Source: Nitrospira sp.
Lineage (GTDB): Bacteria > Nitrospirota > Nitrospiria > Nitrospirales > Nitrospiraceae
Direction of reading: 5' to 3'
NCBI GenBank assembly: GCA_018242665.1
Contig: JAFEBL010000017.1
Span: 62,001 to 126,000, forward strand
Length of the DNA stretch: 64,000 nucleotides
Positions 33,323 through 40,977 of the stretch are shown one piece after another (the first letter of the stretch is position 1; each line of letters begins with the position of its first letter). The notes beneath the pieces are model-generated. The model saw only the letters and a program-made list of their open reading frames with translations. It had not been told where the DNA came from and ran no database searches. Both the position numbers and the translations under genes were made by a program.

Positions 33323-33907
33323 CTAGCGGATGGGCTCGTTCTTGGACGAGGTCATAATAAGGGCGAGGCACCCCTCCTCGCTTGACGTAACGGGATGGAC
33401 GGTCCCCGCTTCCGCTCGATGGTAGTCCCCGGCTTGCAGGAACTCTCCGGCGCAGACACAACTGCCTTCCAGCACATACAACTCTTCGAGTTGCGGGTGG
33501 CGGTGCCCGATCAATGTGCCACCGGGCGCCAATCTCAACAACATGGTCGTGCGCGCCGCCGCAGCATCGTGAAACAGCACTTTCATCGATAATCCCGGCG
33601 CCAATTCCCGCCACGCCAGTCCCTTGCTTCGAACGAACGTGAACCCGGTTCCCTCCGCCGCCTCCTGCGGTTCCTGGGCGATTCGCGCCATGAGCCGCTC
33701 CTTGAGAGAGGCCGGGGGAGCGATGGCCGGGCCGCTGAAAGCCAACTCCTGCACGACGTCTTGAAACGACGCCACCTCTTCTCTCGTGGAAGCTGAGGCC
33801 GTTTCCAACGAGCGAGCGAACTGCCGCTGCGCCTCGTCGCCAAGCGCGTCCAATGCATAGAGCGCCGCGAGTTCGGTTACGTCTTCGTCGTGCCGAGGAT
33901 CGGTCAT
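33323..33907 (-). CDS. ChrR-like cupin anti-sigma factor
   Basis: 194 aa. The N-terminal anti-sigma domain (about 1-75: ELAALYALDALGDEAQRQFARSLE) lacks the His-x3-Cys-x2-Cys zinc motif of ZAS proteins. The C-terminal cupin (about 90-190) has GTLIGHRHPQLEELYVLEGS (HxH...E) and a later TVHPV His, a complete metal site. In ChrR, the cupin senses singlet oxygen or organic peroxide and releases the sigma factor. The start overlaps the sigma stop by 4 nt, so the pair is coupled. Confidence 0.85.
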   Translation of the reverse strand: MTDPRHDEDVTELAALYALDALGDEAQRQFARSLETASASTREEVASFQDVVQELAFSGPAIAPPASLKERLMARIAQEPQEAAEGTGFTFVRSKGLAWRELAPGLSMKVLFHDAAAARTTMLLRLAPGGTLIGHRHPQLEELYVLEGSCVCAGEFLQAGDYHRAEAGTVHPVTSSEEGCLALIMTSSKNEPIR

Positions 33908-34509
33908 GACAACAACCCTTCCCCGTGGGGCGCGAGTACTTCGCGCAACTTGATCATGCCCAGTCTTATCCGGGTCTTCACCGTCCCCAGCGGCAACTGC
34001 AACTGATCGGCAATTTCACTCTGACTCATGCCCCAGTAATAGGCCAATGCGATCGCCTGCCGCTGGTCAGCAGAAAGACTGCCCAAGGCCTCCTGCACCA
34101 GACGTTGCCGCTCCAAGCCCGCGCTGTATTGCTCCGGCGTCTCTTCATGACCCGGCAACTCGGCCGCCTGTTCGAGCGGGACCTGCCTGCCTCGCTCCAG
34201 GACACTGCTCCGGAATCGATCGATGGCGCGATGCTTCGCAAGCGTCATGAGCCAACTGCCCGGCGTGCCCCGCTCCGCGTCATAGGTCGAGATCCGTCGC
34301 CACACCTGCGTATACACATCGAGCGTCGTCTCTTCGGCCGCCGCATGATCCCCGATAATCTTCATCGCCAGGCCGAACACCTTGGCACTGCTGGCATCAT
34401 AGAGCTCCGCCAGTGCCGATTGATCTCCCACGGCAATGCGCGCGAGGAGCCCTGCCCATTCCTGCTCGTGAATCGATGGTGCGTTGGCCACGGTCTGGAT
34501 ATCACACAT
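33904..34509 (-). CDS. ECF-type RNA polymerase sigma factor
   Basis: 201 aa; GAGGAC precedes the ATG. Region 2 covers about 30-100 (ALAELYDASSAKVFGLAMKIIGDHAAAEETTLDVYTQVWRR, then GSWLMTLAKHRAIDRFR). Region 4 covers about 135-190 (ALGSLSADQRQAIALAYYWGMSQSEIADQLQLPLGTVKTRIRLGMIKLRE). Pairing with a cupin anti-sigma points to an oxidative or electrophile signal. Its targets could include the divergent globin, but no ECF promoter was demonstrated. Confidence 0.93.
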   Translation of the reverse strand: MCDIQTVANAPSIHEQEWAGLLARIAVGDQSALAELYDASSAKVFGLAMKIIGDHAAAEETTLDVYTQVWRRISTYDAERGTPGSWLMTLAKHRAIDRFRSSVLERGRQVPLEQAAELPGHEETPEQYSAGLERQRLVQEALGSLSADQRQAIALAYYWGMSQSEIADQLQLPLGTVKTRIRLGMIKLREVLAPHGEGLLS

Positions 34510-34609: not shown

Positions 34610-34720
34610 CGACACTTTTTCCGCCGACCGTAGATCCAATCGCCTGCTGTCATCGTAATCACAGACAGAGAGGCCGATACGACGGCCCACCACACAGATT
34701 CTTAACCCGGAGGAAACATC

Positions 34721-35197
34721 ATGACTCACCGCATTGCATCCCTCGCCATGGTCCTCGGTCTTGCCCTGAGCGTCTCAGCATGCAACAGCATGGGCTCGTC
34801 GCCCGCCGCCATGCCCGCCGCGGAGAAATCTTTGTACGACCGCTTGGGCGGGAAAACCGCCATCACCGCCGTCGTGGATGATTTTGTCGGACGCGTGGCC
34901 GCCGATAGCCGCATCAACGGAAAGTTCGCCAACGCCAATATTCCACGCCTGAAATCGATGCTGGTCGATCAGATTTGCCAAGCGTCTGGCGGTCCCTGCA
35001 CCTACACCGGCCGCGACATGAAGAGCACCCATGCGGGCATGGGCGTTAGCAGCAGCGACTTCGATGCGCTGGTCGGCGACCTCGTCGCCACGCTGAACAA
35101 GTTCAAGGTGCCGGAACGAGAGAAGAACGAGTTGCTCGGCGCGCTCGGCCCGATGAAGGGGGATATCGTCGAGAAGCCGATGGCCTCGATGCGGTAG
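34721..35197 (+). CDS. Group I truncated haemoglobin, lipoprotein form
   Basis: 158 aa; GGAGGAA 8 nt upstream. Signal peptide with Cys 21 in SVSAC, predicted lipidation; most truncated globins are cytoplasmic. The globin domain follows at about 36-155: LYDRLGGKTAITAVVDDFVGRV, NIPRLKSMLVDQICQASGGPCTYTGRDMKSTHAGMGV, with proximal His 104. TrHb group I proteins bind O2 and detoxify NO. Here the haem would face the periplasm. Divergent from the ECF sigma pair. The identity is secure, the location is predicted. Confidence 0.93.
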   Translation: MTHRIASLAMVLGLALSVSACNSMGSSPAAMPAAEKSLYDRLGGKTAITAVVDDFVGRVAADSRINGKFANANIPRLKSMLVDQICQASGGPCTYTGRDMKSTHAGMGVSSSDFDALVGDLVATLNKFKVPEREKNELLGALGPMKGDIVEKPMASMR

Positions 35198-35297: not shown

Positions 35298-35315
35298 CTG
35301 TAACGCTCCTTACAG
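35298..35315. promoter_or_regulatory. Crp/Fnr-type palindrome upstream of the thioredoxin-fold gene
   Basis: CTGTAA-cgctcc-TTACAG, perfect 6-bp arms around a 6-bp centre (midpoint 35306.5). The right arm overlaps the -35 position of a promoter whose -10 would be TATATC at 35334-35339. The midpoint is 41.5 bp from position 35348, the A of the gene's ATG. This is the class II activator spacing if transcription starts there. Confidence 0.6.
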
Positions 35316-35347
35316 ATTGTCAGGCCCGCATTCTATATCGTAGCCGT

Positions 35348-35587
35348 ATGGCTCGTTTGACGATCTTGATCCATCGGGGCTGTCTCAGCGACACCGCCGT
35401 GGAGAGGCTGGCGGAAGACATTCGGCACCAGCTTCCCGACTGGACCATTGAGCTGATACCGGCAGAGCTCAGTACCGAGTCCAGCGGGCTCGTGGCGTTC
35501 CCGGCGTTCCTCGTCGACGGGATTGTGGTCGCCACAGGGCTGCCTGAACGAGAATGGCTACTGAAGCGACTCCGAGCGCACAGATGA
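35348..35587 (+). CDS. Small thioredoxin-fold protein with a single cysteine
   Basis: 79 aa. It reads LTILIHRGCLSDTAVERLAEDI, then FPAFLVDGIVVATGLPEREWLLKRLR, the beta-alpha-beta...cis-Pro-like layout of glutaredoxin/thioredoxin-fold proteins. The active-site position has one Cys (C12, HRGC) and no CxxC, so it would act, if at all, as a monothiol carrier or metal-binding protein. No ribosome site precedes the ATG and the predicted promoter ends almost at the start codon, suggesting a leaderless mRNA. Likely regulated by the Crp/Fnr protein encoded next door. Confidence 0.7.
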   Translation: MARLTILIHRGCLSDTAVERLAEDIRHQLPDWTIELIPAELSTESSGLVAFPAFLVDGIVVATGLPEREWLLKRLRAHR

Positions 35588-35647
35588 AAGAGGAAGTATC
35601 ACCGCGAGCAGACTATCGCCTATGGCGAGGCTGACCAACGGACGGTG

Positions 35648-36355
35648 TTACGAGGCCAGTCGAACCAGCGCGTCCGGCTGGAGAATGACGACCGTGCGCC
35701 CGTCAGTCTGAATCAGGCCTTCTTCCCTGAACTGCCCCAATGTTGTGCTCACCGTTTCCCGACTGCAGCCGATTAGGTTGGCCATTTCCTGATGGGTCAA
35801 CTTTACTTTCAGACGCACCCCCTGCGGGTCCGGATCGCCTTCGTTCTTACCCAACTCGGACAGCAGATGCGCCAGCCGGGCCGGCACATCGCGGAACACA
35901 AGGTCCTCCACACGACTCTGAATCTTCTTCAGCCTCAATCCGATCAGTTTCGTCAGGTTGATGGTCACATTCGGATGCATGGCCAGGTACTGGTCGAACT
36001 CCTTGCGAGGAATCACACAAATCAACGCATCGTCGAGAGTCTCCGCTGAAGTAGACCTGGGAGTGTCCTGCAGCACGTCGAGTTCCCCAAAGACTTCGCC
36101 GGCCTCGATGATCTCGAACGTGACTTCTTTTCCATTGGGCGCCGTGTTGGCGATTTTGACGCGGCCCCGCTTGAGCAAATACACGCTGCTGCTCGGATCA
36201 CCCGGAAGATACAGGGGCTGCCGTTTCTTGATTTCCTCCATGCGGGTAATCTTCTCCATCTCATGCATCGCTGAGGAAGAGATCCCGTCAAACAGGCGAA
36301 TGTGTTTCAGGAACCACAGTTTATTTGGAATGGATGGCAACCGTTCCATGTGCAT
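35648..36355 (-). CDS. Crp/Fnr-family regulator of the bufferin region
   Basis: 235 aa (ATG 36355 or 36349). The cNMP-type sensor domain covers about 15-130 (RQPLYLPGDPSSSVYLLKRGRVKI, FEIIEAGEVFGELDVL). The winged HTH is at about 160-225 (LTHQEMANLIGCSRETVSTTLGQFREEGLI), with the E-R of the recognition helix (CSRETV) that reads TGTGA-type half-sites in Crp. No N-terminal iron-sulfur cysteines. It is the last gene of the minus-strand bufferin series, 68 bp after the DoxX gene. It is the obvious candidate to bind the CTGTRA-N6-TTACAG palindromes on either side of the cluster. Confidence 0.92.
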   Translation of the reverse strand: MHMERLPSIPNKLWFLKHIRLFDGISSSAMHEMEKITRMEEIKKRQPLYLPGDPSSSVYLLKRGRVKIANTAPNGKEVTFEIIEAGEVFGELDVLQDTPRSTSAETLDDALICVIPRKEFDQYLAMHPNVTINLTKLIGLRLKKIQSRVEDLVFRDVPARLAHLLSELGKNEGDPDPQGVRLKVKLTHQEMANLIGCSRETVSTTLGQFREEGLIQTDGRTVVILQPDALVRLAS

Positions 36356-36423
36356 CCCTCATGATGATCTTCGCATACGGTACCCATCTATCCCCGACAA
36401 GGCAACGGCTCGCAAGACCCCGT

Positions 36424-36993
36424 TCAATTCTCGTCTCTCCCGCAACACGTCACTCCGCCCTTGCCCCTCTGTGGAACTTGCGCAGCAATGGGACCATCCG
36501 CGGCATGGCTGCATTTCCGCCATCTCCGGTAGAGCATCTGCAGAAGACCATCCGCCGACAGCTGCCCGGGGCCGTGCAACACGAAATAGAGAAAAAGAAT
36601 CCCCCAATAAAACGCCTCTTGGAGCGCAGCTTCTGATAGTTGCCCGTAGGATGTCACCGCCACAATGTTCAGGCCAAAGAGTGAAAGCGCCGCCCAACGC
36701 CCGGCGAGGCCGATCGCCAGGAGGATCGAGCCGCCCAATTCGACGGCGGTGGCCAGGTAGGCCGCGATTTCCGGCGGCAGGACCGGCACATCGTAGACCA
36801 TGGTAAAGAGCATGACGGTCGACATCCAGCTGGCCAACTTGACCATGCCGCCCTTCCAAAAGATGTGCGCCAAGTAAAGACGGACGGACAGGTCGAAAAA
36901 CGGCACCAAGGCCTCCAGTCCAAAAATTAATCGATGGTGCATGAGCATGACACGGTTGACGATATGCGAAAAGAATCCGTCGTGTGTTGTCAT
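36424..36993 (-). CDS. DoxX family membrane protein (BufD-like)
   Basis: 189 aa. Four TM helices with DoxX features: VRLYLAHIFWKGGMVKLASW, EIAAYLATAVELGGSILLAIGLAGRWAAL, and FYWGILFLYFVLHGPGQLSADGLL. DoxX members are frequent in bufferin clusters, where their exact role is open (a membrane or redox partner is proposed). Its start overlaps the BufC stop by 4 nt, so it is coupled. The C-terminus ends with CCGRDEN, a cysteine pair outside the family core. Confidence 0.88.
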   Translation of the reverse strand: MTTHDGFFSHIVNRVMLMHHRLIFGLEALVPFFDLSVRLYLAHIFWKGGMVKLASWMSTVMLFTMVYDVPVLPPEIAAYLATAVELGGSILLAIGLAGRWAALSLFGLNIVAVTSYGQLSEAALQEAFYWGILFLYFVLHGPGQLSADGLLQMLYRRWRKCSHAADGPIAAQVPQRGKGGVTCCGRDEN

Positions 36994-37787
36994 GCCCGCA
37001 CCGTTGTCTCGACGCTACCCAACAGGCCCAACCGGAGCATGAATCTCATGAAGCGCGTGAAATCAAACTCGCGGTCTACCCGTAGGGCGATCTGCTCCAG
37101 CTCGGCCACAGTCTTTCGCTCGGCTATGGCTTCCAGCAATCGATAGTCAAGCGTTGCGAGCGCTCTCACCTCAATCGTTCCTCCGGCCCGTACAACCGCC
37201 ACGCCCGTCTCTTCATCATCGAGGAATAGGTCAGCCTGCTGGTTTGCCGGGGACTCTGCCTGGAACGAGAACCAGAGACGATGGACCGGCTGCGAGAGAC
37301 GCAGCCATCGAACCGTTGGGCTCAGAACAAGGACGACTTGCGATGGATCGGCTGAAGCGATAGTTTCGAGTTGATCGTGGGATATCGGCGGAGCATCGGC
37401 TGCCTGATGCACGTCATGACAGGCCCATTCCAATCGCGCGAGTTCGGCCAGCAGGGCAGGGAGTTGTAATTCACGCAGCAGCGCCGGCAGAGACCGCCCA
37501 TAGGCAAACAGGTCGCCGCTGGTCGAGGGATACTTCCGCATATAGCCACACGCCAGGACGTCGAAGTACCGAGATCCGACAAGCCGCCGAAGAATGGGAT
37601 ATGTCACTTGGAGTACCTGCGTATAGTTGGTGCGGATCAAACGGCGATAGAGGGCCAGCCCTCGCAGGGGTGAGTCGCCAGCTACCATGTTGGCCGCCAC
37701 GACCTGGTACTTTCCCGCCGTCATCCCCTCGGCAAAGACTTCCTGAATCTCACGAAGCCGAAGCATGGCACGCTCCAAGCATCGCAT
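36990..37787 (-). CDS. bufC: BufC-type partner protein (DUF2063 DNA-binding-like domain)
   Basis: 265 aa from 37787 (Met 37766 is an alternative). The N-terminal helical domain about 10-100 (LREIQEVFAEGMTAG, LYRRLIRTNYTQVLQVTYPILRRLVGSRYFDVL) is the DUF2063 family, named DNA-binding-like from structure. In MNIO systems it delivers the precursor peptide to the enzyme. The C-terminal half is beta-rich. Its start lies inside the MNIO gene (38-nt overlap), showing tight coupling. Confidence 0.88.
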   Translation of the reverse strand: MRCLERAMLRLREIQEVFAEGMTAGKYQVVAANMVAGDSPLRGLALYRRLIRTNYTQVLQVTYPILRRLVGSRYFDVLACGYMRKYPSTSGDLFAYGRSLPALLRELQLPALLAELARLEWACHDVHQAADAPPISHDQLETIASADPSQVVLVLSPTVRWLRLSQPVHRLWFSFQAESPANQQADLFLDDEETGVAVVRAGGTIEVRALATLDYRLLEAIAERKTVAELEQIALRVDREFDFTRFMRFMLRLGLLGSVETTVRA

Positions 37788-38595
37788 CCGCCTGCTTGGC
37801 CTGGTCGACCAGGACGGATAGCGGCGGCATGTTGGTATCCCATTCGATCAACGTCGGCCGTGGCCCAAACCGATGAATCGCCCACTGATACAGGTTCCAG
37901 ACTTCCGGAGAGACCGTCTCGCCATGGGTATCGATCAGCCACTTCCCGAAGCGATCGAATCCAGCCAGATGGATTTCCCAGACCGCCTCGGACGGAATCT
38001 TGTCCAGGAACTCGAACGGGTCCAGATGAAAGTTGACCGCGTTGACATACACATTGTTGAGATCGAGCAGGATGCCGCAACCGGTCCGTTCGGCAATCTC
38101 AGCCAGAAACTCCCCTTCCGGAATCATGCAGTCACGCCAGGTCAGATACCGCGTGATGTTTTCGATCAGGAGGGGCCGCTGCAACACGGTCTGAACGTCG
38201 TCGATCCTGGCGCAGATGTGATCCAGGCTTTCCTCCGTGTAGGGAAGCGGCAACAACTCATTGAAGAAACGACCACCGACGGAACTCCACGAGAGATGCT
38301 CCGACAGGAACGCCGGTCCAAATCGGTCGATCAAACACTTGAGTTTTGCGAGATGGATCCGGTCGAGCGGATCGGTCGAGCCCAACGACAAGCCGACCCC
38401 GTGAAAACTTAATGGGTACTGGGATCTGATCCGCTCGAGGATGCGAAGCGGCGCCCCGCCCTCGCCGAAATAATTCTCCGGATGGGTTTCCATCCAAGCG
38501 ACTGCTGGGACCGAATCCAGAATCTCTCGAAAATGCTGCGATCGCAGTCCGATCCCGGCCTGAGCCGGGATCGGGGTTGGATATGAGCAAGACAT
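37750..38595 (-). CDS. bufB: MNIO (DUF692) multinuclear iron oxygenase, BufB
   Basis: 281 aa. TIM-barrel DUF692 motifs with the metal ligands: THPENYF, FHGVGLSLG, SEHLSWS, IENITRYL, LDLNNVYVNA, EIHLAGF, DTHGETV and EWDTN. MNIO enzymes use two or three irons to rewrite cysteines in RiPP precursors; in bufferins they form thiooxazole rings that bind copper. It lies 11 bp downstream of the precursor gene, and overlaps bufC. Family and role are well supported by context. Confidence 0.95.
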   Translation of the reverse strand: MSCSYPTPIPAQAGIGLRSQHFREILDSVPAVAWMETHPENYFGEGGAPLRILERIRSQYPLSFHGVGLSLGSTDPLDRIHLAKLKCLIDRFGPAFLSEHLSWSSVGGRFFNELLPLPYTEESLDHICARIDDVQTVLQRPLLIENITRYLTWRDCMIPEGEFLAEIAERTGCGILLDLNNVYVNAVNFHLDPFEFLDKIPSEAVWEIHLAGFDRFGKWLIDTHGETVSPEVWNLYQWAIHRFGPRPTLIEWDTNMPPLSVLVDQAKQADAMLGACHASAS

Positions 38596-38606
38596 CGCCG
38601 TCCGTC

Positions 38607-38942
38607 CTACATCTTCTTCATCATCATGTCTTTCATTTTCGCCAAATCATCCTTGGTGATGGCCAGCACCGTGCCCTTCACGATCTTGGCGCAAAGGCCT
38701 TTCGGCAAAAACACATAGGAATCGGCTTCATTGTCGGTCTTCGCCATCCCGACACAGGAATGAAGACTGGTCTTGACGGCGCAATCGTTCATGCCGGCCT
38801 TGGCGACGCCGCCGCAGGCTTCCCAGCCGCTGGGCAACTCCGGCATCTTGGGCTCGGCACTCGCCGCTTCGGCCCCTACCAGACTCAAGGCGATCAACAA
38901 TGCGGACTGGGCCGTAGCGCTTTTCTTCGTTTTTGTGTTCAT
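38607..38942 (-). CDS. bufA1: BufA1-type bufferin precursor (DUF2282)
   Basis: 111 aa from the ATG at 38942 (AAGGAGA upstream). Signal peptide 1-29 (SALLIALSLVGAEAASA). The mature core has four cysteines at 43, 54, 63 and 84 in WEACGGVAKAGMNDC, LHSCVG and PKGLCAKIVKG, the BufA1/DUF2282 pattern. The tail is Met/Lys-rich (DMMMKKM). Bufferins are MNIO-modified RiPPs exported intact to the periplasm, where they chelate copper. Directly followed by bufB. Confidence 0.93.
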   Translation of the reverse strand: MNTKTKKSATAQSALLIALSLVGAEAASAEPKMPELPSGWEACGGVAKAGMNDCAVKTSLHSCVGMAKTDNEADSYVFLPKGLCAKIVKGTVLAITKDDLAKMKDMMMKKM

Positions 38943-39086
38943 CTGAATCTCCTTATGAGGTGTCATACCATCGTGAAAAAATTTCAGTACCGACCATCTG
39001 CGCACTGACTCATTCAGCACTCGCTCATGTGAATTCCCCCTTTCCGCCGTAGAGGATGTCTCAAGGACCAGCCGACGACCAGCCCA

Positions 39087-39215
39087 TCACCTACCCAACA
39101 GCCAATAGGCCGTTCCGCCAACCATGAGCATGAGCATCACCACCATCATCATTTTCTCGTGGCCACACATCCCAGGCTTCTCCGTACATCCCTTGATCGA
39201 ACACATCATCGCCAT
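39087..39215 (-). CDS. Small Cys/Met-rich single-TM protein at the head of the bufferin operon
   Basis: 42 aa from the ATG at 39215; AAAGGAG lies 9-10 nt upstream. The N-terminal half is MAMMCSIKGCTEKPGMCGHEK, with three Cys, Met and His. A Met-rich helix MMMVVMLMLMVGGTAYWLLG follows. The residue choice suggests copper(I) handling at the membrane. It is 145 bp upstream of bufA1 on the same strand, and downstream of the Crp-type palindrome. I know no family for it. Confidence 0.6.
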   Translation of the reverse strand: MAMMCSIKGCTEKPGMCGHEKMMMVVMLMLMVGGTAYWLLGR

Positions 39216-39301
39216 CCTCGTTTCTCCTTTGTGAAAGGCCTCTGGCAGCGTCACCCGGTCTCTGCAGACGGAACTGCACCAACCCACCTATCGTGTGGCT
39301 A

Positions 39302-39345
39302 ACTGTATCCGCACCAAGCCGATCGGTCTGTGAGCTGTCTTACAG
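39302..39345 (-). promoter_or_regulatory. Crp/Fnr-type palindrome and promoter of the bufferin operon
   Basis: CTGTGA-gctgtc-TTACAG at 39328-39345 (plus-strand reading; midpoint 39336.5), nearly identical to the 35298-35315 site. On the minus strand a -10 hexamer TACAGT lies at 39307-39302, placing the transcription start at about 39295, 41.5 bp from the palindrome centre. The leader before the small membrane protein would be about 80 nt. Confidence 0.55.
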
Positions 39346-39789: not shown

Positions 39790-40977
39790 ATGCCCACCGA
39801 CGACATAATCCAGAAAGTCAGCGATCGCTATGCCCGCGCCGCCTCCACTGGGGAGCAGATGTGTTGTCCGACGGGTTACAACTTTGAGGATCTACGCTCG
39901 TTCATTCCGGATGCCGTTCTGAACATTTCCTACGGCTGCGGCACTCCAGCAGGATTGGACACGGTGCAGACCGGTGAAACCGTCCTGGACATCGGCTCCG
40001 GCGGCGGGATCGATTGCTTCGAAGCCGCGCGCCGTGTGGGCCCTACTGGGCATGTCATTGGAATCGACATGACGGACACCATGCTGGAGATCGCCCGCCA
40101 ACATGCCCCCATCGTCGCCGCAAATCTCGGGTTTCCCCAATCGAACACCGAGTTTCGCAAGGGCATGGCCGATGCGATGCCGGTGGAGGACGCCACCATC
40201 GACGTGATCATCTCTAACTGCGTCATCAACCTCGCCCCTCATAAGTGTAAGGTCTTCCACGAGATGTACCGCGTCCTAAAGCCAGGTGGTCGCTTCACGA
40301 TCTCCGATATCGTATCCGACCAAGTCGTTCCGCAATACATGGTGCACGATGCCGCCAAGTGGGGCGACTGCCTCTCTGGAGCCCTGCAGGTTCAAGATTA
40401 CATCGGCGGAATGGTGGAGGCGGGTTTTCGCGCCGTGCACCAGATCAAGTCCGGTACCTGGCAATCGATCGACGGCGTGCATTTTCTGTCCGTCACCCTG
40501 ACCGGGTACAAGCTCTCGGATACGGTGGACAACGAAGCCCCGCTCTATGCGACACTGTGCGGACCGTTTTCAACCGTGACCGACGAACTGGGCCAGCAGT
40601 ACCGACGCGGCGTGCCACAGCCGATCGATGCACAGTCTGCACAACTGTTACGGAGTGCGCCGCTGCGCCCGCTGTTCCTCATCGGTCCGGCGCCAATCAC
40701 GCTTGTTGAGGCCGATCCACGCTGGTGCGCCATCCTGCCAGAGCCGACTCCCTGCGTCTGGCAGGGCGCCTACGCCATTCTTACCGGACCCATCATCAGC
40801 GCCGAGGATGACGATCATCATCAGTTCTATCGGGGAGTGCCGCTGGAAATCTGCTCGAAGACCCAGCATGTCCTAATCCAGGACCCATACCAATCTCACT
40901 TCACGATCTACCACCGAAGCTCGCACGTCGTGGAGGGCGAACCGGTGAGGTGTTCGCCTGAAGGGAACTGCTGCTGA
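39790..40977 (+). CDS. arsM: Arsenite methyltransferase with C-terminal extension
   Basis: 395 aa; GAGGGGAA precedes the ATG. The SAM core covers about 30-215 with VLDIGSGGGIDCFEAA and GIDMTDTM. Conserved cysteines match ArsM: C50 in YGCGTP, C144 in ISNCVINL, C194 in WGDCLSGAL; an extra pair C25-C26 lies before them. Residues about 240-395 form an added domain ending CSPEGNCC. ArsM converts As(III) to methylated arsenicals. Pairing with arsS suggests organoarsenical synthesis rather than simple volatilisation. Divergent from the bufferin operon. Confidence 0.88.
   Translation: MPTDDIIQKVSDRYARAASTGEQMCCPTGYNFEDLRSFIPDAVLNISYGCGTPAGLDTVQTGETVLDIGSGGGIDCFEAARRVGPTGHVIGIDMTDTMLEIARQHAPIVAANLGFPQSNTEFRKGMADAMPVEDATIDVIISNCVINLAPHKCKVFHEMYRVLKPGGRFTISDIVSDQVVPQYMVHDAAKWGDCLSGALQVQDYIGGMVEAGFRAVHQIKSGTWQSIDGVHFLSVTLTGYKLSDTVDNEAPLYATLCGPFSTVTDELGQQYRRGVPQPIDAQSAQLLRSAPLRPLFLIGPAPITLVEADPRWCAILPEPTPCVWQGAYAILTGPIISAEDDDHHQFYRGVPLEICSKTQHVLIQDPYQSHFTIYHRSSHVVEGEPVRCSPEGNCC

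Follow-up and report, generated by a model that had tools for sequence, protein, structure and literature searches.

A conserved palindrome at class II promoter spacing associates bufferin and thioredoxin-fold genes with a probable Crp/Fnr activator in Nitrospira

Two 18-basepair palindromes flank a block of genes in the 64-kb stretch of Nitrospira DNA analyzed here (‘the window’, meaning that stretch at its full length), and raise the question of whether they are genuine binding sites and, if so, which protein reads them and what that protein controls. An earlier note on the same DNA had described the two as nearly identical 18-mers, and both are indeed present as described. The first (CTGTAACGCTCCTTACAG; CTGTAA-CGCTCC-TTACAG; 35298–35315, plus strand, centre 35306.5) is the predicted class II site of a thioredoxin-fold gene promoter. 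The second (CTGTGAGCTGTCTTACAG; 39328–39345, minus strand, centre 39336.5), which reads CTGTAA-GACAGC-TCACAG along the direction of transcription, is the predicted class II site of a small-protein/bufferin operon, a role based on the presence of an upstream site at 15/15 bufferin loci examined. Their arms match at 11 of 12 positions but the whole 18-mers at only 12 of 18, and therefore the near identity holds for the arms and not for the complete sites.

Read along the minus strand, the block between the palindromes encodes a 42-residue Cys/Met-rich small protein (MAMMCSIKGCTEKPGMCGHEKMMM...; 39087–39215), a DUF2282 bufferin precursor (38607–38942; PF10048; start at MNTKTKK), the MNIO-family bufferin maturase BufB (37750–38595; PF05114; 367 bits against the NF050167 MNIO_BufB equivalog cut-off of 310), a BufC-like DUF2063 partner protein (36990–37787; PF09836; HvfC family model match below cut-off), a DoxX-family membrane protein (36424–36993; PF07681, HvfX-like) and finally a Crp/Fnr-family regulator (35648–36355), the last located between the palindromes as had been proposed. 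With its precursor, maturase, DUF2063 and DoxX genes, the bufferin operon appears, from gene content, to be a set of copper-buffering genes. Since nitrifiers depend on copper enzymes, the way they handle copper matters for nitrification. Most Nitrospira bufferin operons begin with a conserved gene for this 42-residue peptide (pattern MCSxxxC...MCGHE; 55–76% identity among relatives), which gave no family match and is a possible metal-binding partner.

The remaining gene of the block, on the plus strand at 35348–35587, encodes a 79-residue protein with a single invariant cysteine (C12) and an invariant histidine (H9). An AlphaFold2 model (pLDDT 88) gave Foldseek matches to thioredoxins and SelW-like proteins, in agreement with the label ‘thioredoxin-fold’ assigned previously; that label refers to the predicted fold only, because a Pfam search with the protein returned no match.

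In class II activation, as described for E. coli CRP, the site is centred at −41.5 from the transcription start and no −35 box is needed. The spacing calculated in the earlier note for both window promoters is correct: 41.5 bp separate centre 35306.5 from the predicted start at 35348, and centre 39336.5 from the predicted start near 39295. The bufferin-operon −10 hexamer that it had named, TACAGT, is found at 39302–39307 on the minus strand, exactly at −12 to −7. For the thioredoxin-fold gene its choice of TATATC must be replaced by TATCGT (35336–35341, plus strand; −12 to −7 relative to the ATG), which fits the class II position and a TANNNT conserved in relatives, with TATATC lying 2 bp upstream. 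Since each palindrome fills the −35 position, no −35 hexamer is left.

We examined conservation at loci that were fetched by the regulator protein, BufB and the thioredoxin-fold protein, rather than by the site itself; site searches brought in further copies of these promoters, and identical ones were collapsed. The palindrome is present, with at most one mismatch and ending 32–34 nucleotides before the ATG, in all 25 distinct thioredoxin-fold promoters, even where the encoded protein shares as little as 29% identity with that of the window; these promoters belong to related genomes and are only partly independent of one another. Each also has a TANNNT following the palindrome, at bases 21–26 in 21 promoters and at bases 22–27 in the other four. 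One or two palindromes were found upstream at each of the 15 bufferin loci, and the earlier prediction that the sites would be conserved upstream of orthologous operons is thus borne out. TANNNT at the class II offset (within bases 21–27) is present in 15 of 19 bufferin promoters, with CAAGTT in most of the rest; in several relatives it is the further-upstream bufferin site that has CAAGTT in place of TANNNT, which counts against the regulon interpretation. Across these promoters the site centre falls at −41.5 or −42.5 from the predicted start, and TANNNT 20–21 bp beyond the palindrome. The palindromes are, as judged from sequence, real and evolutionarily conserved predicted binding sites.

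At six loci (L112, L113, L115, L118, L120 and L140) the bufferin operon contains two tandem sites separated by ∼275–410 bp. The small gene has one of them upstream and the bufferin precursor the other, which would give the operon two class II promoters.

The predicted start at 35348 coincides with the A of the thioredoxin-fold gene's ATG, and therefore implies an mRNA without a leader. The same arrangement is found in all 25 promoters: the −10 element ends 6–7 nucleotides before the ATG, so that transcription would begin at, or about one base before, the A of the start codon, and no room is left for a Shine-Dalgarno sequence. The thioredoxin-fold message thus seems to start directly at its start codon.

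We then compared sites with the regulator across 29 congeneric genomes, 13 with the regulator and 16 without. Exact CTGTRA-N6-TYACAG sites number 42 in the former and 6 in the latter (Mann-Whitney p = 1.2e-4), as compared to 9 and 11 for the reversed control pattern. A composite signature, in which the site is followed after 20 bases by TANNNT and a single mismatch is tolerated, gave 62 versus 14 matches (p = 5.5e-5; control 4 versus 10). Half of those 14 (7) come from a single genome, G019, in which target genes and sites are present and the regulator was not found in an assembly that is 88% complete and divided among about 1030 contigs. Three genomes (G010, G011 and G025) carry the regulator yet have 0, 0 and 1 exact sites, respectively; at their targets the palindrome deviates at one position. 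G010, the nearest relative, with a regulator 95% identical, lacks a bufferin operon; sites with a single mismatch precede both its thioredoxin-fold gene and crp. The regulator there thus has a site of its own, whereas in the window it is separated from the site by the bufferin operon. Both the thioredoxin-fold gene (Fisher p = 2.4e-5) and BufB (p = 1e-3) co-occur with the regulator.

The regulator belongs to the Crp/Fnr superfamily (PF00027, E 1.4e-20; PF13545, E 6.9e-21), with cNMP-binding and HTH_Crp domains. Its best matches are in N. moscoviensis (86%) and many Nitrospira MAGs (69–86%). It was rejected as an orthologue of the cAMP receptor CRP (equivalog NF008732; 110 bits versus a cut-off of 266) and as an FNR-type 4Fe-4S oxygen sensor, having only C113 and C197 among 235 residues and no N-terminal cysteine cluster. 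E. coli CRP reads TGTGA through R180 and E181, and its R185 reads the fourth base of the half-site. In the recognition helix of the Nitrospira protein (SRETVSTTL) the equivalent Arg and Glu are invariant and the position of R185 (T204 in the window protein) is occupied by T, A, S, M, N or H among regulator sequences, in agreement with a motif in which TGT and A are fixed and the base that R185 would read is relaxed to R. The T127/S128 pair of E. coli CRP contacts adenine; reading of the sequences indicates that its equivalents are not conserved in the regulator. The regulator keeps a phosphate-cassette-like FGEL...PRS, and 28 of the 29 genomes encode a class III cyclase, so a cyclic nucleotide is a possible ligand. 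More distant relatives of the regulator include 4 Nitrospirota loci at 51–54% identity and 44 others at 37–44%, mostly from Myxococcota. Among these the motif was found only at L099, itself a Nitrospira locus, and it therefore seems to be limited to the regulator in its Nitrospira form.

We consider it very probable that the palindromes are operators of the intervening Crp/Fnr activator, which would act in class II fashion to drive both window targets. A regulator dimer, once triggered by a signal, would bind CTGTRA-N6-TYACAG centred 41.5 bp upstream of the start and recruit RNA polymerase as a class II activator, replacing the −35 box beside a TANNNT −10 element. One window target would be the operon of the 42-residue protein, bufferin, BufB, BufC and DoxX, whose last co-oriented gene is that of the regulator (providing positive feedback); the other would be the monothiol thioredoxin-fold gene, with an mRNA predicted to begin at its ATG. 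Other metal- or thiol-detoxification genes would fall under the same regulator across the genus. We infer binding by the 35648–36355 protein, activation rather than repression, the transcription start sites and a metal/thiol stress signal.

That the palindromes are simply a chance pair is hardly credible. With two mismatches allowed the window does contain 8 matches against 3 expected, but the exact pattern occurs twice in the window, versus a mean of 0.000 and a maximum of 0 in 300 first-order Markov sequences; the earlier assertion that the pair is hard to explain by chance agrees with this near-zero expectation, and the retention of sites upstream of orthologues contradicts a chance origin. 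The sites might instead be read by a different Crp/Fnr protein of the same genome, with the linked gene a bystander or one of several readers. That genome encodes four other such proteins (26–30% identity), G019 retains sites with no detected orthologue, and the two paralogues of the regulator described below, 72% identical, presumably share the motif. The recognition helices of those four proteins (TVETAIRLL, TPETLARLL, RREVVSTLL and STETAIRIM) nevertheless differ from that of the regulator, genomes lacking the orthologue contain further Crp/Fnr-like candidates and yet have no more exact sites than control, and the sites flank the regulator gene in both paralogous blocks, which together make a different reader very unlikely.

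Repression from the palindromes, of which Crp/Fnr proteins are capable, would account poorly for a centre fixed at −41.5/−42.5 from a conserved −10 element with no −35 hexamer, the geometry of class II activation, and we regard it as highly improbable. A separate question is whether the thioredoxin-fold message is leaderless. A promoter further upstream might instead yield a longer transcript and leave the palindrome with another role, and read-through from the upstream, co-oriented globin gene is possible. This seems unlikely given the position of TANNNT described above; moreover, the start codon is ATG in 25/25 cases and the conserved protein sequence begins at that methionine, leaving no room for a later start.

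If the linked regulator activates from these sites, its regulon in its own genome would be small, as the earlier note had predicted in naming the bufferin operon and the thioredoxin-fold gene; across the genus it extends further than that prediction. The composite signature is found in the 4.06-Mb genome at five promoters, corresponding to two bufferin blocks, two thioredoxin-fold genes and one DsrE-like gene. Exact sites likewise number five (reversed control, 0), and four of these belong to the window block and a paralogous copy of the whole block. That copy occupies a 13-kb contig (C9, L022; 1–12984) carrying DsrE, the small protein, bufferin, BufB, BufC, DoxX, a Crp paralogue and a divergent thioredoxin-fold gene. 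The contig also has unannotated genes, among them a 362-residue reading frame that is replication-like by eye (no Pfam match) and one for a weak MerR-like protein, and is possibly a mobile element or plasmid; a plasmid search for the regulator gave no match.

Two further matches in this genome were set aside. The fifth exact site (contig C54) has no −10 element at the class II offset, and the identical sequence is present in G006, a genome without the regulator. A palindrome with one mismatch at 34647–34664, between the ECF sigma and truncated-globin genes, is probably a product of chance, because it lacks a TANNNT at class II spacing and a similar site is absent upstream of globin in L143, L144, L047, L052, L060, L062 or L055.

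Elsewhere in the genus the site lies directly upstream of crp in many relatives, before an operon in which the gene for a VTT-domain protein precedes that for a MerA-like flavoprotein (its score under the cut-off of the MerA equivalog), and before an ArsM-like methyltransferase (a homologue of the window gene at 39790–40977) with a divergent MerR gene; in G010 a thioredoxin-like gene and a MerF gene come after this MerR gene. This gene content points to metals and thiols as the common theme of the regulon. A broader proposal, offered tentatively, is that a so far undescribed Crp/Fnr subfamily, specific for CTGTRA, serves Nitrospira as a dedicated activator under multi-metal/thiol stress, uniting copper-buffering bufferins, the ArsM-like methyltransferase, mer genes and the MerA-like reductase, with the leaderless monothiol thioredoxin-fold gene as its fixed core member.

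An identical site-bearing region lies beside a MerR/MerF cluster in G010 (L204), G022 (L197) and G019 (C359), with a DDE transposase gene after it (shown in L204); G022 lacks the regulator. The recurrence in three genomes and the transposase suggest that this metal island moves with an insertion sequence.

Comparison with E. coli CRP class II promoters indicates a shared Crp fold with cNMP-binding and winged-helix domains, a 6-bp spacer, a centre at −41.5 and no need for a −35 element; the Nitrospira system differs in its half-site (CTGTRA, not TGTGA), in the loss of the R185 equivalent, and in a regulon that is small, local and related to metals and thiols rather than global, with one target whose mRNA is predicted to lack a leader. 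By sequence, M. tuberculosis CRP (3D0S) is the closest relative of solved structure, and it resembles the regulator in the FGEL...PR-S/T phosphate-cassette region. FNR and NnrR-type regulators of the same superfamily have been reported for the same genus (PMC8510549, PMC5596200), with targets predicted using matrices from other bacteria (PMC8510549); unlike those, the present protein has no N-terminal cysteine cluster and combines a CRP-like recognition helix with a different motif. A linkage to NirK, suggested for Nitrospira Fnr (PMC5596200), was not seen by eye around L048 and L055.

Bufferin gene clusters have been described with the same DUF2282 precursor, MNIO maturase, DUF2063 and DoxX genes, in association with sigma factor and NrsF anti-sigma genes and with Crp unmentioned (PMC12452194), whereas the Nitrospira operon is linked to a Crp/Fnr protein. 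We searched the open literature for this motif, for the regulon and for Crp/Fnr control of bufferins, and found none of them described. Crp/Fnr class II regulons are well known as a kind; this one, and its leaderless core promoter, appear to be new. The analysis supplies a candidate regulator, operator and regulon for the bufferins of an important genus of nitrifiers; the bufferin survey (PMC12452194) describes only associated sigma factors. The precise motif (site-N20-TANNNT) can be scanned for in any Nitrospira genome, and the signal and the leaderless class II promoter become directly testable.

An ECF sigma/ChrR-type cupin anti-sigma pair (33323–34509) is located near the window's bufferin operon, and we saw no link between the two. 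The pair adjoins the truncated globin gene (34721–35197), and this ECF sigma/ChrR/globin arrangement is conserved beside the thioredoxin-fold/Crp pair in L052, L062, L143 and L144.
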